Shown in pieces: positions 10,584-22,337 of a DNA stretch of 64,000 bases (positions are counted from its first letter, which is position 1; every line of letters begins with the position of its first letter). The notes beneath the pieces were generated by a model that worked only from the letters and a program-made list of their open reading frames with translations, had not been told where the DNA came from and did not search any database. Source of the DNA: a virus. A program made the translations under genes and the position numbers. The stretch is taken from IMG/VR virus record IMGVR_UViG_3300017776_000007, positions 1 to 64,000 of that record. One strand, given 5' to 3'.

Positions 10584-10778
10584 ATGCCAACAAAATTAGG
10601 AAAGTCTTACAAGACTGTTGACAGAGCCACTAAAAAGGTAACTGTAATGAACCCATACATTAAAGGTATGGCCAAAAAGGATCTCATAGAGAAGTATAAC
10701 GACAAAAATACTAGACCGAAAGATAAGAGGAAGATTAAAAATGAATTGGTTAGGAGAGGCGGTGTCGTCTTTAATTAA
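10584..10778 (+). CDS. Small basic protein, function unknown
   Basis: A 64-residue, highly basic protein (TKLGKSYKTVDRATKKV; NTRPKDKRKIKNELVRRGG). It follows the previous gene by 8 bases with AAGGAGA before the ATG. The charge suggests nucleic-acid contact, but no motif confirms that. Its last 38 bases overlap a small membrane-protein gene in another frame. Confidence 0.7.
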   Translation: MPTKLGKSYKTVDRATKKVTVMNPYIKGMAKKDLIEKYNDKNTRPKDKRKIKNELVRRGGVVFN

Positions 10779-10875
10779 GGGATTCTTTAATATAATTAAA
10801 TGGGTTATAATATTGTTCATAGTAGTAGCAATATGCATGACCGTTATTCAATACGGTAGTATAACTCAATTCTAA
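10741..10875 (+). CDS. Very small membrane protein
   Basis: A 44-residue protein with one strong hydrophobic helix (FFNIIKWVIILFIVVAIC) in the middle and a short polar tail. The ATG lies inside the 3' end of the preceding gene in a different frame, so translation is probably coupled. No ribosome binding site stands out and the family is unknown. The membrane segment and lack of stop codons make it likely but not certain. Confidence 0.5.
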   Translation: MNWLGEAVSSLIKGFFNIIKWVIILFIVVAICMTVIQYGSITQF

Positions 10876-10886
10876 ATCTCTGGCTG

Positions 10887-10894
10887 TATAAATA
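10887..10894 (+). promoter_or_regulatory. T4-type late promoter, predicted leaderless
   Basis: TATAAATA, the exact T4 late -10 box, ends five bases before the ATG at 10900. T4 late transcription starts about six bases after the box, which would place it on the ATG. Confidence 0.8.
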
Positions 10895-10899
10895 GATAT

Positions 10900-11058
10900 A
10901 TGGCCAGAACAGCAAAAATAATAAAAACAATTGCCACTAAACCCAAGTGTTCTTCACAGGGGTTAGGTGGTCGTGGTCGTTCAACCAAAATAGGGTTGAG
11001 TACTATGAACAAACATAGAAAACGGAGCTATAAGGGTTATCGTGGGCAAGGTAAGTAA
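10900..11058 (+). CDS. Small basic late protein
   Basis: A 52-residue, Lys/Arg/Gly-rich protein (GLGGRGRSTKIGLSTMNK; RKRSYKGYRGQGK). I recall near relatives ending in a similar YRGQG motif in cyanomyoviruses, without function. It directly follows a late promoter box with no room for a Shine-Dalgarno, so initiation is probably leaderless. The composition would suit DNA or head contact. It overlaps the next gene by 17 bases. Confidence 0.75.
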   Translation: MARTAKIIKTIATKPKCSSQGLGGRGRSTKIGLSTMNKHRKRSYKGYRGQGK

Positions 11059-11257
11059 AAACGATATTACTGGAGACAGTATTCAAACAAAAGTAGCAAG
11101 TAATGCATATTGGGATAACTATGATGCAATATTTGGAAAGAAACAAAAAGTAAAACAACAGTCAATGACTGAACTTAATTGGGATGGAAATGAAGACCGA
11201 GGCAGGTATGGCGAAGATGAGTCGAAACAAAACGAGGTATCATCGAGTTCTGTTTGA
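11042..11257 (+). CDS. Conserved small phage protein, function unknown
   Basis: A 71-residue hydrophilic protein with GTG start, beginning MGKVSKNDITGDSIQTK, followed by NYDAIFGKKQK. I recall this N-terminal pattern in marine T4-like phages, in a small late cluster. A purine-rich AAGGG lies about 10 bases upstream. It overlaps both neighbours in different frames, a compact arrangement seen throughout this region. Confidence 0.75.
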   Translation: MGKVSKNDITGDSIQTKVASNAYWDNYDAIFGKKQKVKQQSMTELNWDGNEDRGRYGEDESKQNEVSSSSV

Positions 11258-11357
11258 TCAGGACAGTCCATTCAAGCGTCATCAAGTTGTTCCCAATAAA
11301 AAGAAAAATATTCCGCGTAAGTCAAAGAACGGGAATATAAATATAAAAGAGGATTAA
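11208..11357 (+). CDS. Conserved small basic phage protein
   Basis: A 49-residue basic protein with the segment RYHRVLFDQDSPFKRHQVV, a pattern I recall from short cyanophage proteins. The open frame also has ATGs at 11190 and 11217; the one at 11208 is best placed after GAGGCAG. Its 5' part overlaps the previous gene and its 3' end contains a late promoter box for the next gene. Function unknown. Confidence 0.65.
   Translation: MAKMSRNKTRYHRVLFDQDSPFKRHQVVPNKKKNIPRKSKNGNINIKED
11336..11343 (+). promoter_or_regulatory. T4-type late promoter
   Basis: TATAAATA, 16 bases before the ATG at 11360. The predicted start near 11349 still leaves GAGG as a Shine-Dalgarno. It would drive the structural and lysozyme genes that follow. 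Confidence 0.65.
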
Positions 11358-11359
11358 AT

Positions 11360-11623
11360 ATGGCAGATTTATTAGATTTTGATTTCGGGTTTACCGCAGT
11401 TGATGAAAATGAACTAGAGGCAGTACAAAAGGTTACTACTGAAGCTTCTAGCACGTCTGCTTCCTTACAAGAAACAGAAGAGAAACTTAACAAATTGTAT
11501 AACTCGATCTTGCCACTTCTTACTAATTTAAAGAAGAATCCCGAAAAGGAATATATTCTCTGGCCAAATAGAGTAGAGAAAATAGAGCAATTTGAGGATT
11601 TAATTTCGGGGATAATTAAATGA
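11360..11623 (+). CDS. Conserved small late protein, coiled coil
   Basis: An 87-residue acidic protein beginning MADLLDFDFGFTAVDENELE and ending in LYNSILPLLTNLKKNPEKEY. I recall very similar proteins in marine T4-like phages next to late genes. A central heptad-like stretch suggests a coiled coil. It has AGAGGA before its ATG and overlaps the next gene by 4 bases (ATGA). Probably virion-associated, by context only. Confidence 0.75.
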   Translation: MADLLDFDFGFTAVDENELEAVQKVTTEASSTSASLQETEEKLNKLYNSILPLLTNLKKNPEKEYILWPNRVEKIEQFEDLISGIIK

Positions 11624-12954
11624 CACTAATTTCAAGTGGTGCATTGGCATTAAAAGATTTAGGAACTAACCCATCCTCTAGTACAATATTGGATACTGGT
11701 TATAATGCATTTTCTCTGGCATCTGATACTTCGTTTACTTTAAATCAGGCTTATAGGCTATATTATGATGGCGAAGTAAATGCTTGGGAATATGCCAATG
11801 ATGTGCTTGTTGATGGAACTGCATATGTATATAAAAGGCAATCAACTTCGGCCTATCACGATTCAGGCCACCAGACAGGTATTTATAGCGCCACTGGTTA
11901 TACTGCTGATATAGGTACTGCATTAGAACGAACAGGACAAGCAACAGCATACTCTTCCCAAACATATGTTTCTGGAATTGGTTTAAATGCTAGTTCAAGT
12001 TCTACACTAGGAAGTTTAACCTCAGCTGCTCAAACATTTGGATCTCCTGATGGTAATACTCGTACTATTAGTGATTTCGGATTATGTCAAAATACAAATT
12101 CAAATACTGGTTACAACCAATCCCAAGATAAGGGTAATATAATTTGGTTTGGCCTTGTCGGTTTAGTATCTAATACTGATACTGCTGCATTTTATAATAT
12201 GACTATTTATGATAGTAGCGGTAATGGAATAACTGGCCTCACTAGATCAAGTGCAACTTATGTATATGACGGAAATGTCACAATATGGACTTGGCATAAC
12301 GTTGCTGATAGCTCTATGAATTATGTGTCACAAAGTGGTATAACCAGAATGATATTAACTTCGGCAAGTGCAACATCATTTAATAATGGTATTTCAGAAG
12401 AAATGTCAGGCGGCACTGATTCTAATCCGATTAAAATGAGCGACTATTATAAAGGTGGAACTTATCACAATACCCCGAATATACCCACTTCTGGACAAAT
12501 AGAATTTTCAGATTTTTATGGAAAGGCAAGAGTTGGGGCAGGCGGCACTAGTATACATGCAACTAGTTGGGTTGGGGAATTTAATTGGAACTATGTATCG
12601 TTTTCTGGATTTAATAATGCATCAAGTCTAGGATCTATGGGCACTGCTTCTTTTACTTATCCAAGTAGTACTACTGCATCAATTATTACTCTTTATAATA
12701 TTAATAACGGAAACACTTATCTTACTTTAAGCGGAAACCAGTTTCCGAATAGTGGTTGGTCGAATTTAAAAATATGGGTAAATAATTCCACCGGATCGGG
12801 TAGTCCGACTTATACCTTTACCCGAAGTAGTGGAACTAGATCAGTAAACACATCTGCTTCTCCTAATACAACAACTTGGCTTTGGAGTGGTAGTCACGCA
12901 TATGCGCCAGCAACTATTGGAGCAACATATAATAACTATTTGGTAATCGACTAA
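11620..12954 (+). CDS. Putative virion structural protein (Ser/Thr/Gly-rich)
   Basis: A 444-residue protein with low Lys and high Ser, Thr, Gly, Asn and Tyr, typical of beta-rich phage surface proteins. The segment NIPTSGQIEFSDFYGKA resembles an IPTSGQI(K/E)FSDF(Y/R)GA motif I recall repeatedly in marine T4-like virion proteins. No signal peptide or catalytic motif is seen. It overlaps both neighbours by 1-4 bases, in a late operon with lysozyme. It may be an adhesin or a neck/whisker component. Confidence 0.65.
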   Translation: MTLISSGALALKDLGTNPSSSTILDTGYNAFSLASDTSFTLNQAYRLYYDGEVNAWEYANDVLVDGTAYVYKRQSTSAYHDSGHQTGIYSATGYTADIGTALERTGQATAYSSQTYVSGIGLNASSSSTLGSLTSAAQTFGSPDGNTRTISDFGLCQNTNSNTGYNQSQDKGNIIWFGLVGLVSNTDTAAFYNMTIYDSSGNGITGLTRSSATYVYDGNVTIWTWHNVADSSMNYVSQSGITRMILTSASATSFNNGISEEMSGGTDSNPIKMSDYYKGGTYHNTPNIPTSGQIEFSDFYGKARVGAGGTSIHATSWVGEFNWNYVSFSGFNNASSLGSMGTASFTYPSSTTASIITLYNINNGNTYLTLSGNQFPNSGWSNLKIWVNNSTGSGSPTYTFTRSSGTRSVNTSASPNTTTWLWSGSHAYAPATIGATYNNYLVID

Positions 12955-13839: not shown

Positions 13840-14304
13840 ATGTTTTTTAATAGAGACAAAGATATTGACGTTGATCAATTAAGAGAACAACTTATTATAG
13901 ATGAGGGACAAGTAAATGAAATTTATAATGATCACCTCGGTTATGCTACATTTGGCATTGGACACTTGGTACTGGAAGGAGACCCAGAACATGGGATGGA
14001 GGTCGGTACTCCAGTGGCAGAGGATAGAGTCATTGAATGTTTTGCCAAGGATGTAGAAACAGTTATCAAAGATTGTAAAAAATTACATGATGGTTGGGAC
14101 GGTTACCCACAAGAGGTGAAACAAATCGTTGCAAATATGATGTTTAATATGGGACTCACGCGCTTGAGCAAATTTAAGAACCACAACGCAGCGCTGCAAT
14201 GTGGTGATTGGAAGGAGGCGGCTGTAGAAGGTCGTGATTCAAGATGGTACAAACAAGTGACAAATCGAGCGGAAAGACTTATGTCGAGACTAGAGGCGGT
14301 ATAA
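13840..14304 (+). CDS. e: T4-type lysozyme endolysin (GH24)
   Basis: A peptidoglycan-cleaving muramidase. It shows the T4 lysozyme catalytic triad in register: Glu22 in IIDEG, Asp31 in YNDHLGY and Thr37 in YATFGIGH. The C-terminal motif NMGLTRLSKFK and SRWYKQVTNRAERL also match. Length (154 residues) is close to T4 gpe (164). There is no signal peptide, so it needs a holin for access to the cell wall; small membrane proteins follow at 14710-15374. It is the lysis gene in this late operon. Confidence 0.95.
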   Translation: MFFNRDKDIDVDQLREQLIIDEGQVNEIYNDHLGYATFGIGHLVLEGDPEHGMEVGTPVAEDRVIECFAKDVETVIKDCKKLHDGWDGYPQEVKQIVANMMFNMGLTRLSKFKNHNAALQCGDWKEAAVEGRDSRWYKQVTNRAERLMSRLEAV

Positions 14305-14696: not shown

Positions 14697-14704
14697 TATA
14701 AATA
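14697..14704 (+). promoter_or_regulatory. T4-type late promoter driving the membrane/curli cassette
   Basis: TATAAATA ends five bases before the ATG at 14710, so the predicted start again lies on the initiator codon. It is the only promoter-like signal I see before the 14.7-21.6 kb cassette. Confidence 0.8.
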
Positions 14705-14709
14705 AAAGT

Positions 14710-15006
14710 ATGGCCGAAATCTTTGAATTAATTGCTCAAGTCGGTGCTCCTATTGCGGGAGCACTCGCTATGGGCGTCTTTATTTTCCTAATTATAAAAC
14801 AAATTTTAGAAGGGCTAGTCGGGCAGATTAGAACCCTTACACTGTTTTGTGAGTCATTGGAAAATAGAGCAAGAACTATGGCGAATGAAATGATTAAAAT
14901 TGATATGTTAGTCAGTAGTGCGCTTGAATTGAGGCCAGATATAGAAAGAGTTGCACGTGCAGAAAACTTTGTTGAAGATGGTAAAGTTGATGTGAGACGT
15001 GACTAA
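14710..15006 (+). CDS. Membrane protein, holin candidate
   Basis: A 98-residue protein with one hydrophobic segment near the N-terminus (VGAPIAGALAMGVFIFLIIK, about 11-30) and a long charged helical C-terminal domain. The size, single helix, position just after lysozyme and late promoter fit a holin or holin-like protein, but no family is recognised. Translation is probably leaderless. The stop codon overlaps the next ATG (TAATG). Confidence 0.65.
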   Translation: MAEIFELIAQVGAPIAGALAMGVFIFLIIKQILEGLVGQIRTLTLFCESLENRARTMANEMIKIDMLVSSALELRPDIERVARAENFVEDGKVDVRRD

Positions 15007-15113
15007 TGGTAGACGAAGTCGAAATGGTTGAATATTCATTTACTAGAGACTTTATTCTAATGTGTTCATTAGGACTGAATGTGGGATTTTTCATAAGTTT
15101 ATTATTTATTTAG
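15006..15113 (+). CDS. 35-residue membrane peptide
   Basis: A tiny protein with an acidic N-terminus (MVDEVEMVEYS) and one C-terminal hydrophobic helix (FILMCSLGLNVGFFISLLF). Its ATG overlaps the stop of the holin candidate. It ends 9 bases before the next gene. The small size and topology would suit a holin or antiholin partner; this is inference. It is supported by the tight coupling and hydrophobic pattern. Confidence 0.5.
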   Translation: MVDEVEMVEYSFTRDFILMCSLGLNVGFFISLLFI

Positions 15114-15122
15114 GAGAATAAT

Positions 15123-15374
15123 ATGGATCAATTGGTAAACGGTATTTCAGATTATGGATTCCCAATTGTTGCATGTGTTGGTTTTGGCTACTTTCTATAT
15201 TATATTTGGTGTTTTATTTCAGATGTAATAGAACCTGAAATAGAGAAGATGCATATGGCATTAATTAGAGTTATTGACCAAACAAGAATGCTCGATCAGG
15301 ATTTAATAAGATTGCAGCAAAAGGTCAATGTGGTTTTGGAATATAAGGAAAATGAAAAAAAGAAACGCGAATAA
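15123..15374 (+). CDS. YvrJ/holin-like membrane protein
   Basis: An 83-residue protein with an N-terminal hydrophobic helix beginning ISDYGFPIVACVGFGYFLYY, which resembles the short YvrJ-type phage membrane proteins (pattern GFPI-V at the helix start), then a charged coiled-coil C-terminus ending KENEKKKRE. TAGGAGAATA precedes the ATG. It is the third small membrane protein between lysozyme and csgF, and overlaps csgF by 23 bases. A holin or membrane-scaffold role is possible. Confidence 0.7.
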   Translation: MDQLVNGISDYGFPIVACVGFGYFLYYIWCFISDVIEPEIEKMHMALIRVIDQTRMLDQDLIRLQQKVNVVLEYKENEKKKRE

Positions 15375-15921
15375 CAGAGAATGGGAATTATTAAAGAGCG
15401 CTGTAGGCCCTAGAATTTGGGATAGATGGGATTTATTTCATGCATTTATTTTTGGATGTATTATAACATTTTTATTTATGTCGCCTGCTGCTTTTGCAGA
15501 TGAAATAAAATTTGGGTTTAAAAATCCATCTTTTAGTGGACAAGGTACTGGAGCTCATTATTTAACAATTGAGAATCAAGAACATTCCCGTAAAAAGGCA
15601 ATAGAAGATGCCTTAGAGGCCGCTAGAAAGGCAGCCGAAAGAGAAGAAAATAATACAACACTTGCTAAGTTTATACGAAACTTGGAGAGCAGAATTTATG
15701 CTCAAATGGCCAAACAGATGGTTGAATCCATGTTTAGTAATGATGGCTCAGTAAGATATGGTTCATTTACATTGGAAGGCAGTGTGGTAACATACGAAGT
15801 ACTTACCAATGAGGATGGTTCAGAATATATTAAAATGACAATAGTAGATTCTGAGGGAACAGAAACTATAATTGAGATTCCTGTAGGCACAGGTAACTTC
15901 GGGCAAGACTCGGATGGCTAA
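15352..15921 (+). CDS. csgF: Curli assembly factor CsgF homologue
   Basis: A 189-residue exported protein. A long n-region and hydrophobic stretch end in PAAFA, giving predicted cleavage after Ala49. The mature N-terminus DEIKFGFKNPSFSGQG matches the start of CsgF (FRNPNFGG in E. coli), the part that inserts into the CsgG channel. A second match is LAKFIRNLESRIYAQMAKQM, corresponding to the CsgF FTQ-IQSQ helix, followed by a beta-rich C-terminus. I chose ATG 15352, which follows AAGGAAA. csgG overlaps its end by 8 bases, as expected for an export pair. Confidence 0.88.
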   Translation: MKKRNANNREWELLKSAVGPRIWDRWDLFHAFIFGCIITFLFMSPAAFADEIKFGFKNPSFSGQGTGAHYLTIENQEHSRKKAIEDALEAARKAAEREENNTTLAKFIRNLESRIYAQMAKQMVESMFSNDGSVRYGSFTLEGSVVTYEVLTNEDGSEYIKMTIVDSEGTETIIEIPVGTGNFGQDSDG

Positions 15922-16888
15922 GTATATTGGAATCATATTTTTAAGTATTTTAACTGGTTGTGCATCTATACCGCAATGGAGTCCCGATCCGAAAGACTGT
16001 AACGATTTGGCTGGCAAGTATGATGAAGGTTTTAATCGACATCTTCAAATGGGTATACAGAAGACTATGTCCAGAAAGTATATCTGTGTGGATGAACCAA
16101 CTGCAGTTAGGTTACCAGCATATGTGGACTTATTAAATCTTCCACCTGCTAAGGAAAGACCAGTAGTTGCAGTATATAGTTTTATTGATAAAACAGGTCA
16201 AAGAAAATCAGTAGATAATATTGCATCATTTTCTACTGCAGTTACCCAAGGTGGTACAGAATTATTAATAGATGCTCTAAAAACTGCAGGTGGAGGCACC
16301 TGGTTTAGAGTAGTAGAAAGGCAAGGTATTGATAACCTAGTCAGAGAAAGACAAATAGTAAGGTCGACACGACAAGATGTAGCAAAAGCATCAGGTGTAG
16401 ACGCTAAAGGTGTGGGACCACTCTTATTCGCAGGAATGATTATAGAGGGTGGTATTATTGGGTATGATACTAATACCGAAACTGGTGGCCGTGGAGCACG
16501 AACACTTGGTATCGGGTTTAGTAAAATGTATCGTAAAGACGTTGTAACGGTTTCTGTAAGAGCAGTATCGGTACTAACGGGTGAAATATTATTAAACGTT
16601 CAAGCCAAGAAATCGGTACTTTCTTATGGTGGTGGGGGTGATGTGTTCAGGTTTATAGAGCAAGGCACCCAATTAATTGAATATGAAGACGGAGTGGGAA
16701 ATAATGAGTCAGTGACATACGCAGTACGGTCTGCCATTGAGGCTGCTGTACTTGAATTAATATACCAGGGGCATGACCGTAACTTCTGGGACTTAACCGA
16801 GGGCCACAGGCATCCGCATCAGTCTAACGGAGCGAATGCAAGGCACTCATTAAAAGAGGATAACGAAAATGATGAAGAAAAAGATTAG
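15914..16888 (+). CDS. csgG: Curli secretion channel CsgG homologue (outer-membrane lipoprotein)
   Basis: Forms the outer-membrane pore that exports curlin subunits. A lipoprotein signal ends in LTGC (lipidated Cys16). The CsgG core is clear: VVAVYSFIDKTGQ, ASFSTAVTQGGTELL (the constriction loop, with the conserved Phe but Ser where E. coli CsgG has Asn55), VVERQGIDNLVRERQI, IIEGGIIGYDTNT, SVRAVSVLTGEILL and KKSVLSYGG. It has about 45 extra residues between the lipobox and the core and a longer C-terminus than E. coli CsgG (277). It is coupled to csgF and to a curlin-like gene. Confidence 0.95.
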   Translation: MAKYIGIIFLSILTGCASIPQWSPDPKDCNDLAGKYDEGFNRHLQMGIQKTMSRKYICVDEPTAVRLPAYVDLLNLPPAKERPVVAVYSFIDKTGQRKSVDNIASFSTAVTQGGTELLIDALKTAGGGTWFRVVERQGIDNLVRERQIVRSTRQDVAKASGVDAKGVGPLLFAGMIIEGGIIGYDTNTETGGRGARTLGIGFSKMYRKDVVTVSVRAVSVLTGEILLNVQAKKSVLSYGGGGDVFRFIEQGTQLIEYEDGVGNNESVTYAVRSAIEAAVLELIYQGHDRNFWDLTEGHRHPHQSNGANARHSLKEDNENDEEKD

Positions 16889-17603
16889 TTTATTGTTCTT
16901 AATATCTATGGCGAGTTCATCAGTTTTCGCTGATGCAGATGATAATGAAATCATGATAGAACAGAGTGGTGACACTTTGACTCTATATATTGATCAAGTG
17001 GGATATGGTAACAAAATTGGTGGTAATGACTTTTCATCGTCACCTAGTGATATGGTAATTACAGGTTCTAGTTTAACATTTAATCTTGACATGATTGGTA
17101 ACCAAAACTTGATTTATGGGCCTTTAACACTTGATTCATCCAGTTTAACATTTAATCTGACTGGTGATTCTAACGAAGTAGATTGGAGTGTTGGAGTAAC
17201 TGGAAGTTCTGATACTTCAAATTATAACTTTGCAGTGACCGGTGATTCAAACACATTTGATATTGATCAAGGTGCCGTAGTAAGTGCTGAAAGATTGGAT
17301 GCAGATTTAATATTATTAGGTAATTCTAATGTATTCGATTTGGATTTTGAATCTGATGATGCTACTTGGAACTTTGATATTACTGGAGATAGTAATAATG
17401 TTAATACTCTCCAAAAGGATGGTGAACATACTATAACAGTAGAATGGAATGGCGACGGCGGAGATATTGATATTAATCAGTTAAGTGGTACTTGTGTTGG
17501 AGGTTCGCCTTGTGCAACACCTAATGCAATTATCAATTTAGATATTACATCTGACAATGCTACAGTCCAAATTAATCAGACAGACAAAGCTAACGATAGT
17601 TAG
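16869..17603 (+). CDS. Curlin-like secreted repeat protein 1
   Basis: A 244-residue protein with a signal peptide (cleavage after Ala21, SVFA) and Asn/Gln/Gly/Asp-rich repeats resembling curlin repeats (Q-x-G-x-x-N): IEQSGDTLTLYIDQVGYGN, DMIGNQN, LTGDSNEV, VTGDSNTFDIDQG, LLGNSNVFDLD, ITGDSNNV. The alternating small/polar strand pattern suits a beta-solenoid or amyloid core. A cysteine pair CVGGSPC lies near the C-terminus. It directly follows csgG with AGAGGA before its ATG, so it is the likely export substrate. CsgA/CsgB identity cannot be assigned. Confidence 0.82.
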   Translation: MMKKKISLLFLISMASSSVFADADDNEIMIEQSGDTLTLYIDQVGYGNKIGGNDFSSSPSDMVITGSSLTFNLDMIGNQNLIYGPLTLDSSSLTFNLTGDSNEVDWSVGVTGSSDTSNYNFAVTGDSNTFDIDQGAVVSAERLDADLILLGNSNVFDLDFESDDATWNFDITGDSNNVNTLQKDGEHTITVEWNGDGGDIDINQLSGTCVGGSPCATPNAIINLDITSDNATVQINQTDKANDS

Positions 17604-18672
17604 TTTTTTACTATTCGCCAGTGGGGTTAAAGCTGATTCCATTGGTGATATAGTAGAGTCAACTGGTGTTGGCCAGATCGTTAGAAATAACGAGCAGATA
17701 ACTGTTACTGGCCAAAAAATACCTGTACAGTTATATGATGAGGCGAAAACTGGAAACGGAAGAATATTAATTGAATTCTTAGATAAGGCAGAACTGGCCT
17801 TAAAAGAGCATTCAGAGGTATTAATAGACGAAATATATTATGACCCGGATCCTTCACTCTCAAAAATGAGTATGAAGTTTACAATGGGTACAGCTAGATT
17901 TGCATCTGGTAGATTGGGTTTAGTAAATAAAGCCAATATAGACATCTCAACCCCTACTGCATCGATTGCTGTTAGGGGAACAGATTTTACTACTACCGTA
18001 GATGAATTGGGCAGATCGCTTATTATATTATTACCAGATGATAATGGTGACCCTTCGGGAGAAATAGTAGTTTCAAATGAAGGAGGCGAGGTTACCTTAA
18101 CTCAGGCCTATGCGGCCACAATGGTATCTTCACTAGACCAATCACCAACACAAACAGTTGTCGTTAATGGTATCACACCAGCTTTAATTGACAATATGTT
18201 TATTGTTGCACCTCCGCCTGAGGTTGAAGATCAAATAAAAGAAGAAATGGCGGATGATGCAGAACAGGATAAAGGTCTTCTTGATATTGACTTTTTAGAA
18301 TTTGATGAATTAGAAAAGGATGAATTAGAAGAAACAGAAGAAGACTTAGATTTTAACGAACTTGATATTGATGAATTAAATGTCGATTTTTTAGTTGACG
18401 TTTTAGATATTATTGATTCTTCCGATTTATTTGATACCTTAGGTGAATTTAATATTAAGGGCGCAGCAAAGGGGTTCAATGATGAATCCCAATTTAATGT
18501 ATTCTTAGAAGACGGCGCATTGGTTCTATATAGAAATGTGAATGGTAAAATAAGAATTAAAATTGGAGCTGGTGGTAATTTTACAGTGGACTCCATAACA
18601 CCAACTTGGGAAGGTATCATAACAGGGAATGAGGGAGAAGATATCCTCATTTATATTAATCAGGTGAATTAA
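17557..18672 (+). CDS. FecR-domain secreted protein
   Basis: A 371-residue protein with a signal peptide (cleavage after Ala26, VKA). The FecR domain spans about residues 28-170: GVGQIVRNNEQITVTG, VQLYDEAKTGNGRILIEF, AELALKEHSEVLIDE, STPTASIAVRGTDFT. In bacteria FecR-type domains occur in envelope signalling and surface-binding proteins. A very acidic Asp/Glu/Leu stretch follows (about 230-300), then a short beta-rich end finishing IYINQVN. The start overlaps curlin-like 1 by 47 bases. Its place between two curlin-like genes and upstream of a cyclase suggests an accessory or signalling role. Confidence 0.85.
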   Translation: MLQSKLIRQTKLTIVSFLLFASGVKADSIGDIVESTGVGQIVRNNEQITVTGQKIPVQLYDEAKTGNGRILIEFLDKAELALKEHSEVLIDEIYYDPDPSLSKMSMKFTMGTARFASGRLGLVNKANIDISTPTASIAVRGTDFTTTVDELGRSLIILLPDDNGDPSGEIVVSNEGGEVTLTQAYAATMVSSLDQSPTQTVVVNGITPALIDNMFIVAPPPEVEDQIKEEMADDAEQDKGLLDIDFLEFDELEKDELEETEEDLDFNELDIDELNVDFLVDVLDIIDSSDLFDTLGEFNIKGAAKGFNDESQFNVFLEDGALVLYRNVNGKIRIKIGAGGNFTVDSITPTWEGIITGNEGEDILIYINQVN

Positions 18673-19404
18673 ATGAAAGTAACAGGAACACATTTAGGCA
18701 TATTAATTATATTATTATTCTTTACAGCACAAATATTTGCTGATGATAATATAATCTCGTTAGAACAATCTGGAGATAATTTACAGTTAGGTGTTGATCA
18801 GATTGGATATGATAACGAAATTACAATGTTAGATGGTAATTCATATATTAATGCATCAAGCCTTGGTATGTACTTGGTTCAAGTGAATACAAGCACTGGT
18901 TCTAATCCTAACACAATCACATTCGATGAAGTGAGTGGAACAGGTAATAAAATGAAACTCGGTCAAGGTATTGCTTGGACTACACTTGATTCTGATACTG
19001 ATTTAACATGGTACTATGATAATTACGAAGGTGGTGGCCATGAGATTGATATAACCATGTATGGCGACTATAATGAATTAGCAGTTCAACAAACAAACCA
19101 AACAGGTGCATTAGATGGACATGATTTTGATTTACACTTGGCTGGTGATTATAACGATGTTCAAATAAAGCAACAAAGTAATGGTGCAAAAAATATAGAC
19201 CTTACAATATATAACGACTATAATGATGTATTCATTCGGCAGAAAGGTGCCAATGCAACTCACAGTGCAAATGTAACACTTGATGGGTTATATGGTACCG
19301 ACTTAACATTAAAACAATTAGGAACTACAACACAAACATATAGTATTAGCATTAACTGTATGACAGTAGGTGGTTGTTCTACAACAGTCGAGCAAGGTAA
19401 TTAA
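18673..19404 (+). CDS. Curlin-like secreted repeat protein 2
   Basis: A 243-residue paralogue-like partner of the first curlin-like protein. The signal peptide is cleaved after Ala23 (QIFA), and the mature start IISLEQSGDNLQLGVDQIGY is nearly the same as in the first protein. Repeats carry Asn/Gln ladders: YGDYNELAVQQTNQ, AGDYNDVQIKQQSNG, YNDYNDVFIRQKGAN. A C-terminal cysteine pair lies in CMTVGGC. It begins immediately after the FecR stop codon. Two subunits would fit a major fibre subunit plus nucleator, as in CsgA/CsgB, but assignment is inference. Confidence 0.82.
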   Translation: MKVTGTHLGILIILLFFTAQIFADDNIISLEQSGDNLQLGVDQIGYDNEITMLDGNSYINASSLGMYLVQVNTSTGSNPNTITFDEVSGTGNKMKLGQGIAWTTLDSDTDLTWYYDNYEGGGHEIDITMYGDYNELAVQQTNQTGALDGHDFDLHLAGDYNDVQIKQQSNGAKNIDLTIYNDYNDVFIRQKGANATHSANVTLDGLYGTDLTLKQLGTTTQTYSISINCMTVGGCSTTVEQGN

Positions 19405-19406
19405 TA

Positions 19407-19673
19407 ATGGAAGAATTTAAATGCCCAGAAGATATGATTTGCATGACAGACGAACAGTGGTATGATTTTGTAAATGAATACGAAATAGACCTAAGTGGCG
19501 AATTAGAAATGGCAGAAATAAGTGACGCCCAGGCAGTTGCTGATTTTACATGGCAAGTATTATTCTTAACTCCATGGGAGTTGGCATATATTGCATTACC
19601 GATGAGTGTCTTGGCCTTCTACGGGTTAAGTATATACGCAATCTTTAAATACATTCAAAGAAGATTTAGCTGA
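19407..19673 (+). CDS. Small C-terminally anchored membrane protein
   Basis: An 88-residue protein with an acidic N-terminal domain holding two cysteines (KCPEDMICMTDEQWYDFV) and one hydrophobic segment at about 54-80 (LTPWELAYIALPMSVLAFYG; LSIYAIFKYI). It starts two bases after curlin-like 2 and its stop overlaps the next ATG (TGATG). I recognise no family. Position suggests it anchors or relays between the fibre proteins and the cyclase; that is speculation. Confidence 0.65.
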   Translation: MEEFKCPEDMICMTDEQWYDFVNEYEIDLSGELEMAEISDAQAVADFTWQVLFLTPWELAYIALPMSVLAFYGLSIYAIFKYIQRRFS

Positions 19674-19753
19674 TGAATTCTTATCAAAGATTTCTTCGTC
19701 TTAAATATGGGTGGGGTATTCCTAAAGGCTTATATATAGACGTATACGCATGA
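19673..19753 (+). CDS. 26-residue peptide linking two coupled genes
   Basis: A very short basic/aromatic reading frame (SYQRFLRLKYGWGIPKG) that begins in the stop of the previous gene (TGATG) and ends overlapping the cyclase ATG (ATGA). It exactly fills the gap. It may be a real peptide or only a coupling ORF that lets ribosomes reach the cyclase start. Confidence 0.4.
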   Translation: MNSYQRFLRLKYGWGIPKGLYIDVYA

Positions 19754-21594
19754 AATATATTACTTCGATATGGACTACAATAGTTCTAATAGCATGTATT
19801 CTTTTTGTAAGAATAAATGATCCTGAATTCTTACAACAGATCAGACTAACAGTCTTTGATCAATATATAAACACACTACCAGAAAAACATTCAGACCAAG
19901 TTGTTCTCTTAAATATTGGAGAAGAATCCCTTGGAGAATTTGGCCAGTATCCCTTTCCTCGTCAGCAGTATGCACAATTAATATCCGATTTAAGAAATGC
20001 CAATGCAGGTATGATAGGGTTTACTATTATGTTTCCAGAGGCAGATAGGTTTGGTGGGGATGAAGTCTTTGCGTCATGGGTAAAAGATAATGGGATTATA
20101 CTCTCACAAGATGCAGATAATAGTGGGAGAAGTTCAAAGGCTCCCTATGTAGGTACTGCTGTATTTGGTAGTGGAGATCCTTTAAACCATGTAATTCGAT
20201 ATAATGGACTTGTAACAAATATATCTGAAATAGAAGAAGGTGCCTGGGGCCATGGATTAATCAACGCTATGCCAGAAGTTGATGGAGTGGTAAGACGAAT
20301 ACCTCTAATCTCTCAAATAAATGAAGAATTATATCCATCATTTGCACTAGAAATGATACGAGTGTTAAACGAGAAAATATCTTATACGGTAAAGGTTAAC
20401 GAAGTAGGGTTAGAAGAAATCATATTGCGACCTTTCAGAATATCAACTGATGTGAATGGCTCGATCTGGATTAATCCTAGATACCATTTTCAGGATATAG
20501 AATATACTTCTGATCCTCTTCCGAATCTACAGGGTAAGACTGTACTTGTGGGTCTAACTGCAAAAGGTCTTGCATCTCAGATTCCAACTTCTCAAGGATT
20601 AAAATCGGCTCATCAGATTCAAGCATCTGCGATTCAGACGATAATAAATGGGGATCAGATAACCCGTCCTCTTTGGGCTGATATTGTGGAGATTGGTCTA
20701 TCTCTGATTGGGGCTTTATTGATCGTAGGAGCAGTTTATTATCTTCCGATTTGGAGTAGTGGTTTAATCTTCTTTGCCGTTGTTGGGTTATCATCCTACG
20801 GCGCATTGTTTTTCTGGAACGAATTTGGATATCTCCTTGACCTTAGTTATTCACTAATATTATATATACTTTCGTTCACTTCAGCATCGTTTAATAATTT
20901 CTATAAACAGTTTGCACTCAGACAACAAATTAAGAAACAGTTCGGAACCTATCTATCACCTGATATGGTTTATATGTTACAGAAGGATCCTTCACTACTA
21001 GCACTTGGAGGTGAAAGAAAAGAGATGTCGTTCTTATTTATGGATATCTGTGGGTTCACCCCCATCAGTGAGCACTATAAGAATAACGACGATCCCGAAG
21101 GATTGGTAGAATTGGTCAACGAATTCTTAGATTCCATGACAAAAATCATACTTAATAACGGCGGAACAATAGATAAGTATATGGGAGATTGTATTATGGC
21201 ATTCTGGAATGCCCCTATCCCATGTGAGAATCATGCTGAGATGGCCGTTAAATCATCAATAGAAATAGAGGCTAAAACAAATGAACTTAAAGAAATATAT
21301 AAGGCAAGAGGTCTTCCTGATATTAATGTCGGTACTGGCATTAACACCGGCGATTGCATTGTTGGTAACATGGGTTCTGAATCCAGATTCGATTACTCAG
21401 TCATTGGAGATGCAGTCAACCTTGCAGCCCGTCTCGAGGCCACTGCCGCTCGGCACGAGTATGTAGAATATAAGACAATCATATCATCATTCACCCGAGA
21501 CCAGTTACCTGAACAGTATAAGTGTGAAGAAATTGGTAACATAAAGGTAAAAGGCAAAGACGAACTTATAACCATTTATTCTCCTAAGTTATAA
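19750..21594 (+). CDS. CHASE2-domain class III adenylate/guanylate cyclase
   Basis: A 614-residue membrane sensor enzyme. Order: N-terminal helix (about 5-21), periplasmic CHASE2 sensor (about 30-300, with VVLLNIGEESL and the PEVDGVVRRIPL motif), three membrane helices (about 310-380), then a class III catalytic domain (about 425-610). Catalytic residues are present: metal Asp432 in FMDICGFT, Lys476 and Asp480 in DKYMGD, DYSVIGD (548-554), Asn557 and Arg561 in VNLAARLE. Lys plus Ser at the base-selecting positions favours ATP. The enzyme looks intact. In bacteria CHASE2-cyclases are often near FecR-domain genes, as here. Confidence 0.93.
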   Translation: MKYITSIWTTIVLIACILFVRINDPEFLQQIRLTVFDQYINTLPEKHSDQVVLLNIGEESLGEFGQYPFPRQQYAQLISDLRNANAGMIGFTIMFPEADRFGGDEVFASWVKDNGIILSQDADNSGRSSKAPYVGTAVFGSGDPLNHVIRYNGLVTNISEIEEGAWGHGLINAMPEVDGVVRRIPLISQINEELYPSFALEMIRVLNEKISYTVKVNEVGLEEIILRPFRISTDVNGSIWINPRYHFQDIEYTSDPLPNLQGKTVLVGLTAKGLASQIPTSQGLKSAHQIQASAIQTIINGDQITRPLWADIVEIGLSLIGALLIVGAVYYLPIWSSGLIFFAVVGLSSYGALFFWNEFGYLLDLSYSLILYILSFTSASFNNFYKQFALRQQIKKQFGTYLSPDMVYMLQKDPSLLALGGERKEMSFLFMDICGFTPISEHYKNNDDPEGLVELVNEFLDSMTKIILNNGGTIDKYMGDCIMAFWNAPIPCENHAEMAVKSSIEIEAKTNELKEIYKARGLPDINVGTGINTGDCIVGNMGSESRFDYSVIGDAVNLAARLEATAARHEYVEYKTIISSFTRDQLPEQYKCEEIGNIKVKGKDELITIYSPKL

Positions 21595-21643: not shown

Positions 21644-21671
21644 TTGACAAACTGGTTGAGCATGATATAAT
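21644..21671 (+). promoter_or_regulatory. Sigma-70-type early promoter
   Basis: TTGACA (21644-21649), 16 bases, TATAAT (21666-21671). The leader carries TGATAAGGAGTT (21686-21697) before the ATG at 21703. It separates the late curli cassette from the early genes that follow. Confidence 0.83.
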
Positions 21672-22308: not shown

Positions 22309-22337
22309 TTGACAAATGGTGCTAGATAGGTTATAAT
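22309..22337 (+). promoter_or_regulatory. Sigma-70-type early promoter (consensus)
   Basis: TTGACA (22309-22314), 17 bases, TATAAT (22332-22337). The leader carries GTGATAAGGAGTT (22352-22364) before the ATG at 22370. Confidence 0.87.

Follow-up and report, generated by a model that had tools for sequence, protein, structure and literature searches.

The 64,000-nucleotide (nt) stretch analyzed here (the window; positions 1 to 64,000 of IMG/VR record IMGVR_UViG_3300017776_000007, a virus record of 65,663 bases) carries, on its + strand at 14710–21594, a cassette of curli-type secretion genes together with genes for a FecR-domain protein and a CHASE2-adenylate cyclase. We regard this cassette as probably a secretion operon of the curli type (type VIII) that a phage carries and expresses late, making infected cells display adhesive fibres. 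The contig belongs to a T4-like phage: it encodes a gp32-type single-stranded-DNA-binding protein and a ribonucleotide reductase, together with tail and baseplate proteins of T4 type. Melnitz, HTVC008M, and Mosig are among the cultured phages nearest to it in these core genes. An earlier note on this DNA had also read the locus as a phage cassette of curli type that includes FecR and a CHASE2 cyclase; this reading is supported, and all open reading frames (ORFs) that the note named are present. It had further held that fibre subunits, FecR, and cyclase in one phage operon were undescribed, which proved wrong: the set was published in 2022 as histidine kinase (HK)-CsgF-CsgG-curlin-FecR-curlin-adenylate cyclase in podoviral and myoviral pelagiphages, with cassette expression reported in metatranscriptomes (PMC9599517). 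Earlier still, csgF and csgG had been reported in pelagimyophages, where 'sibling capture' was proposed (PMC7029224). What benefit curli genes bring to phages that infect the ocean's most abundant bacteria is the question posed in these two papers and in PMC9004378. Three features described below narrow the options and make the purpose testable: a late promoter conserved in relatives, exchangeable heads on one fibre subunit, and a counterpart in a cellular genome.

Gene content and conservation of the cassette

The export genes were readily identified. The product of csgF (15328–15921; PF10614, E 7.9e-16), a secreted CsgG-associated curli protein whose true start probably lies downstream of 15328, has a CsgG-binding N-terminal segment, in which the conserved FKNPSFSG aligns with FRNPNFGG of E. 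coli CsgF. The product of csgG (15914–16888; PF03783, E 6.7e-52) is the outer-membrane curli export pore; the cysteine of its lipoprotein signal, Cys16, is invariant, and its profile matched E. coli CsgG structures with an E-value of 2.4e-66. These are followed by curlin-like 1 (16869–17603), the FecR-domain protein (17557–18672; PF04773, E 9e-8), curlin-like 2 (18673–19404), and the CHASE2 sensor with a class III adenylate cyclase domain (19750–21594; PF05226, E 4.5e-39; PF00211, E 4.6e-20). The CsgF, CsgG, FecR, and CHASE2-cyclase calls of the earlier note thus each exceeded the Pfam cut-off. Two genes for small membrane proteins, tmA (14710–15006) and tmB (15123–15374), stand at the front. 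All genes of the cassette lie on the + strand.

Conservation was assessed in two sets of loci. The first was drawn from 80 IMG/VR loci with a CsgG of the window's type; with the window, HTVC008M, and Melnitz counted, 51 loci span the cassette. All 51 keep the order tmA-tmB-csgF-csgG-curlin1-FecR-curlin2-(sm88)-cyclase; the sole rank violation, in L073, is a second curlin mislabelled through a match to the window's CsgF, and this protein has a Curlin_rpt match. The second set comprised 160 further loci; in 77 of them csgG and the cyclase share a strand, and the order in all 77 is csgF-csgG-curlin-FecR-(curlin)-cyclase. The conserved csgF-csgG-curlin-FecR-CHASE2 order that the earlier note had proposed searching for is therefore present throughout the spanning loci. 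HTVC008M and Melnitz, both cultured, carry the cassette in the same order, and near-identical independent contigs carry it as well. All genes of the operon are under purifying selection, with measurable ratios of nonsynonymous to synonymous substitution rates (dN/dS) of at most 0.34.

Among the carriers, the 337-kb contig L341 has matches to a T4-type major capsid protein (Gp23) and to terminase, and is thus a very large T4-like phage contig. For divergent contigs such as L323, L326, and L322, the major capsid and terminase families gave no confirmation of viral nature. Phage-type cassettes were also seen in L085–L089, L096, and L102, contigs that had been assigned to genome bins of Rhodobacteraceae, Synechococcus, Sphingobacteriales, Saprospirales, Flavobacteriaceae, or Pirellulales and are probably misbinned phage DNA. 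A match labelled 'Salmonella phage' (OR851715) is a 1.5-kb unverified contig and was set aside. Some cassettes contain inserted ORFs that by eye appeared IscU/NifU-type, HemE-like, or radical-SAM-like (L031:12582, L064:12670, L068:12784, L032:12968; L082:13025; L052:2465, L064:7850).

A late box ahead of the cassette

An exact T4-type late box, TATAAATA, is located at 14697–14704 (+ strand), 5 nt ahead of the start codon of tmA. The earlier note's reading of this element gained strength from its conservation in relatives. In upstream regions of 53 distinct relatives, the exact box occurs at most 60 nt from tmA in 32 cases, compared with 1% of random 60-mers, and usually lies 5–6 nt before the start codon. 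Within the same set it was absent before tmB, csgG, FecR, the cyclase, and both curlin genes, and a single csgF has it. In the second locus set, it precedes tmA in 35 of 79 cases and csgF in 46 of 98; it was found before curlin 1 in 4/90 and before the cyclase in 3/59, and before none of tmB, csgG, FecR, or curlin 2. In Melnitz, the late box overlaps the start of tmA. Eight of the 58 genes in the window have TATAAATA just upstream (about 1% expected), including genes for the tail tube, the baseplate, and tail-fibre assembly. The motif occurs 15 times in the whole window against 12.8 expected, so the raw counts do not support a genome-wide excess, and the enrichment is specific to position.

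Late-promoter prediction had failed in pelagimyophages (PMC7029224), and the late box obtained by position-specific comparison is therefore new information, as a consensus match in sequence rather than a mapped start site. A T4-type late box directly ahead of the first cassette gene in relatives appears not to have been described before; the searched text of PMC9599517 mentions neither a late promoter nor the head domains and the Hyphomonas operon described below, and a transcriptome of SAR11 infection (PMC12753301) covered other phages and does not mention curli. Considering the closeness of box and start codon together with the spacing of T4 late promoters, the cassette transcript may have almost no leader.

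A perfect sigma-70-type promoter, TTGACA-16-TATAAT, begins 50 nt past the cyclase stop (21644–21671, + strand; 12/12 consensus positions, with TG before the second hexamer). It was found by a consensus scan, which alone is no proof of function. With the late box in front and this promoter after the cyclase, the cassette has the look of a single transcription unit with defined bounds. A second perfect match of this type lies at 22309–22337, and the two suggest an early gene block downstream of the cassette.

Putative fibre subunits, a possible signalling pair, and small membrane proteins

Comparison of hidden Markov model profiles shows homology between the two curlin-like proteins (E 8e-20). 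Their own Curlin_rpt matches (E 0.0013 for curlin 1 and 0.0012 for curlin 2) fall just below the Pfam cut-off. At the position of the second curlin, relatives exceed it, namely the proteins of HTVC008M (E 5e-8), L322 (E 1.6e-17, in five stretches), and Melnitz. Curlin 1 has a signal peptide, and an AlphaFold2 model built from 48 aligned sequences predicts a beta-solenoid-like ladder of short paired strands (predicted local distance difference test score, pLDDT, 78.7).

The second curlin is the variable member of the pair. In HTVC008M and Melnitz it is present, though too diverged to be detected with the window's sequence. The HTVC008M protein encoded at 10638–11963 (L002, AGE60352.1) between FecR and the cyclase, annotated as a 'hypothetical protein', consists of a PA14 domain (E 2.7e-6, above the cut-off) and curlin repeats; PA14-curlin fusions above the Pfam cut-off were also found in L242 and L249. 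Most other long versions have an unrelated head with weak similarity to ThuA (best E 4.7e-4, below the cut-off) on a homologous fibre body. The last 240 residues of curlin 2 are 90% identical between L257 and L242, whereas their heads have no detectable homology. Between HTVC008M and L201, the other compared cassette genes are 82–97% identical and curlin 2 just 34%, so that here the subunit was replaced as a whole; between L075 and L077, divergence is 36.5% in curlin 2 against about 2% or less in the rest. A second curlin that acts as an exchangeable subunit, bearing a PA14 or an unrelated ThuA-like head in relatives, appears to be a new observation, and we found no publication describing a phage protein in which PA14 is fused to curlin repeats. 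Within the explanation we favor, curlin 1 would likely be the conserved body subunit and curlin 2 the variable one.

The FecR-domain protein consists of a signal peptide, a FecR beta-domain, an acidic linker modelled with low confidence, and a strand-rich C-terminus ending in I-x-I-x-Q-x-N. Among solved folds, its model came closest to the periplasmic signalling domain of PupR (6ovk, E 7.9e-5) and a cell-surface anchoring domain (5ix9; template modelling score 0.72 over 63 columns, E 0.017). An anti-sigma regulator was rejected, because the signal peptide precedes the FecR domain, the architecture of such a regulator (a cytoplasmic anti-sigma part, a transmembrane helix, and a partner sigma factor) is lacking, and a periplasmic-type fold is all that is shared with PupR. 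To judge from this layout, the phage FecR is a secreted protein and not an anti-sigma factor, which also appears to be new. Although the terminal motif looks like a curlin repeat, comparing profiles with the two curlins gave a negative result (about 2% probability), and a curlin-like C-terminus was discarded. In the cyclase, D432, D480, K476, and R561 are kept in 38/38 homologues and N557 in 37/38; the protein thus has the two metal-binding aspartates, the adenine-selecting lysine, and the transition-state asparagine and arginine of class III adenylate cyclases.

Both tmA (98 residues; phrog_18771, E 3.5e-24) and its paralogue tmB (83 residues; phrog_18771, E 4.1e-24) encode proteins with one transmembrane helix, which in TmA is N-terminal and followed by a coiled-coil-like part. 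They are small, match no Pfam kinase family, and lack a histidine that is invariant across an alignment of 20 members; histidine kinases were therefore rejected. The published 'histidine kinase' (PMC9599517) therefore looks like a misannotation, if the name refers to tmA/tmB, which occupy that position; that these genes encode small one-helix proteins without kinase domains appears to be a new reading. A weak, short match to the holin family phrog_4898 was seen in nine of the 20 members (E up to 0.1, best 1.1e-4), extending over only about 21 residues in the window's TmB, and was too weak and short for us to call these proteins holins. Together, tmA (dN/dS 0.015–0.07 for pairs with measurable synonymous divergence) and tmB are among the most constrained genes of the operon. 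They are adjacent in 185 of the 204 loci having both, though their position relative to the core varies. Of 37 loci with a length of 15 kb or more, 11 gave no detectable tmA/tmB, and in the deposited phage collection the two occur only together with the cassette. We also noted that L043–L046 differ from L050 by 15–28% in tmA/tmB and by about 5% or less in csgG, curlin 1, FecR, and the cyclase, which suggests recombination between tmB and csgF.

Three further small ORFs lie within the cassette: (i) tmX (15006–15113), with 35 codons, occurs only in close relatives and has equal length in L005, L006, L008, L014, and L016; (ii) sm88 (19407–19673), encoding 88 residues with one C-terminal transmembrane helix, is present in 13 of the 51 spanning loci and has no Pfam or PHROG match; and (iii) a 26-residue ORF (19673–19753) overlaps the start of the cyclase gene.

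Proposed role and relation to known systems

The identity and order of the genes, their export signals, the late box, the catalytic residues, purifying selection, and the exchange of a subunit are seen in the sequence; from them we infer fibre formation, adhesion, FecR-CHASE2 signalling, and a benefit to the phage as follows. Late in infection, a single transcript from the T4-type late promoter would cover the cassette. It would provide CsgG and CsgF as the pore in the outer membrane, the secreted FecR-domain protein, and two curlin-like subunits of beta-solenoid type for export, with TmA and TmB as putative phage-added accessory proteins of the inner membrane. Before or at lysis, the infected cell would display adhesive fibres. 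Since curlin 2 carries an exchangeable N-terminal PA14 or ThuA-like head in relatives, the fibres probably bind something outside the cell. They may thus serve for capture, of virions after release or of cells nearby, or provide a surface that keeps rival phages out. FecR, whether periplasmic or located at the outer membrane, would most likely be the partner of the CHASE2 sensor, which may report the status of export or of the fibre and switch cytoplasmic synthesis of cyclic AMP (cAMP); secreted FecR-domain proteins are paired with CHASE2 sensors in a Burkholderia biofilm operon (PMC5192318). The best fit is with the capture of virions or cells; exclusion of rivals is possible, and lysis or a pore-only role is less likely. 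We offer more tentatively, as a possible refinement, a late extracellular binding device: phage-encoded amyloid fibres whose second subunit is swapped like a tail-fibre tip, with PA14 or other heads that choose what infected cells and released virions stick to, and FecR-CHASE2 reporting export as cAMP.

Several results weigh against fibre display. The window's own curlin 2 carries no head domain, and the Curlin_rpt matches of its curlins are sub-threshold. Foldseek returned mostly non-significant beta-helices for the curlin 1 model, with the E. coli CsgA fibril 8enq at E 1.5 and no confident fibre match. In cultures of Melnitz, no clumping was seen in cytograms or by electron microscopy (PMC9004378). 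A cyclic-nucleotide-binding domain is encoded in none of HTVC008M, Melnitz, and five large relatives, so that a phage-coded cAMP receptor was dismissed for these genomes and no cAMP target was recognized in them. Finally, CsgE was found in none of the 11 records searched, with a positive E. coli control, which leaves pore gating without explanation. These phages are reported to lack CsgE, which is not essential for the curli phenotype (PMC9599517, PMC7029224); its absence lowers the identity with the E. coli form of curli, not with the phage module.

The main rival, partly derived from PMC9004378, which proposed a role in lysis and stated that csgA and csgB are missing, is outer-membrane permeabilization, with CsgG as a pinholin-like pore, TmA and TmB as holin-like lysis timers, and the fibre genes secondary; lysis was also an option of the earlier note. 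The late promoter suits this role, as do the small one-helix proteins with their weak holin similarity, although the latter is confined to the short stretch noted above in the window's TmB. A genuine lysozyme gene, as the earlier note had called it (13840–14304, + strand; PF00959, E 4.1e-7), lies directly upstream, and in some members of the window's clade a box stands upstream of lysozyme, while tmA has none in front of it. This adjacency, seen in 33 of 66 loci and mainly in the window's clade, is a clade-specific link that gives the lysis option positional support and nothing further. Two curlins, FecR, and the cyclase are retained in nearly every locus under purifying selection, and head swapping in curlin 2 makes no sense for lysis. 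We therefore consider lysis an unlikely main function. The invariant retention of fibre-subunit genes likewise argues against a pore-only role, and the alteration of cell surfaces or trapping that the earlier note had listed beside lysis is best favored, through the exchangeable, head-bearing second subunit of relatives.

Superinfection exclusion, proposed in PMC9599517, would mean that receptors on the infected cell are masked, or competing phages soaked up, by the CsgG complex or by the fibres. It draws on the same surface-exported, variable, head-bearing subunit and overlaps with fibre display, differing only in who benefits and how; late expression would be late for exclusion, and taken by itself we find it rather improbable. 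The suggestion that CsgG without CsgE stays open for nutrients while FecR senses iron (PMC7029224, PMC9599517) is in keeping with the missing gate and with the IscU-like or HemE-like ORFs, identified by eye, within the cassettes of some relatives. Most gene orders are nevertheless free of metabolic genes, the curlins are always kept (none of the spanning loci is a csgFG phage without curlins), FecR shows a signal peptide and no anti-sigma architecture, and with late timing little would be gained from uptake; we judge an uptake pore very improbable. A chimera with host DNA, which would have overturned the earlier note's reading, is excluded by synteny in HTVC008M, Melnitz, and many contigs; synteny in cultured phages and all spanning loci, low dN/dS, and near-identical independent contigs leave a negligible chance for either an assembly artefact or decayed, functionless host genes.

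Among the closest known systems is the type VIII secretion module of pelagiphages (HTVC008M, HTVC023P-type podoviruses, and pelagimyophages; PMC9599517), which has small genes, CsgF, CsgG, curlin, FecR, curlin, and adenylate cyclase as in the window. The window differs from it in forming a separate CsgG subclade and in standing beside lysozyme, and the published 'HK' genes correspond by position to the small transmembrane proteins without kinase domains. The locus of the Methylophilales phage Melnitz (PMC9004378) has the same order and homologous CsgG and CsgF; contrary to the published statement, both curlin genes are present. With E. coli csgBAC/csgDEFG, the cassette shares CsgG and CsgF homologues, probable curlin-type repeats, and the logic of an exported fibre, but it has no CsgE match, CsgC, or CsgD, its fibre subunits are much longer, and it adds FecR, the CHASE2-cyclase, and tmA/tmB. 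The LysM-FecR and CHASE2 histidine kinase biofilm operon of Burkholderia (PMC5192318) likewise places a secreted FecR-domain protein beside a CHASE2 sensor; its output, in contrast, is a histidine kinase with a response regulator, and it contains no curli genes.

A cellular counterpart was found in the marine bacterium Hyphomonas sp. TMED17 (L090:9363–15386, on a 705-kb contig), where csgF-csgG-curlin-FecR-CHASE2-cyclase lie in order among ordinary bacterial neighbours, with a GC content of 50.5%, close to the 53% of the flanks. The same five genes stand in the same order as in the phage cassette; the differences are a lack of tmA/tmB, one curlin of 504 residues instead of two, and a CsgG that is about 57% identical. 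The operon is rare in its group: FecR of this type (E up to 1e-20) occurs in one of 398 genomes of the order, and the cyclase has no match in any other of the family's 105 genomes. Widespread bacterial donors were thus rejected, the other alphaproteobacterial matches being FecR domains, mostly in much larger proteins. In the CsgG tree, L090 groups with the phages (support 99/90); phage monophyly is unsupported (53/15) and the L090 branch is long, so that the tree gives no direction between donor and recipient. Such a cellular operon appears to be new. Two published calls come into question: the naming of 'histidine kinase' genes in the phage module, and the statement that bacterial curli operons contain neither FecR nor cyclase, to which the Hyphomonas operon is a counterexample.

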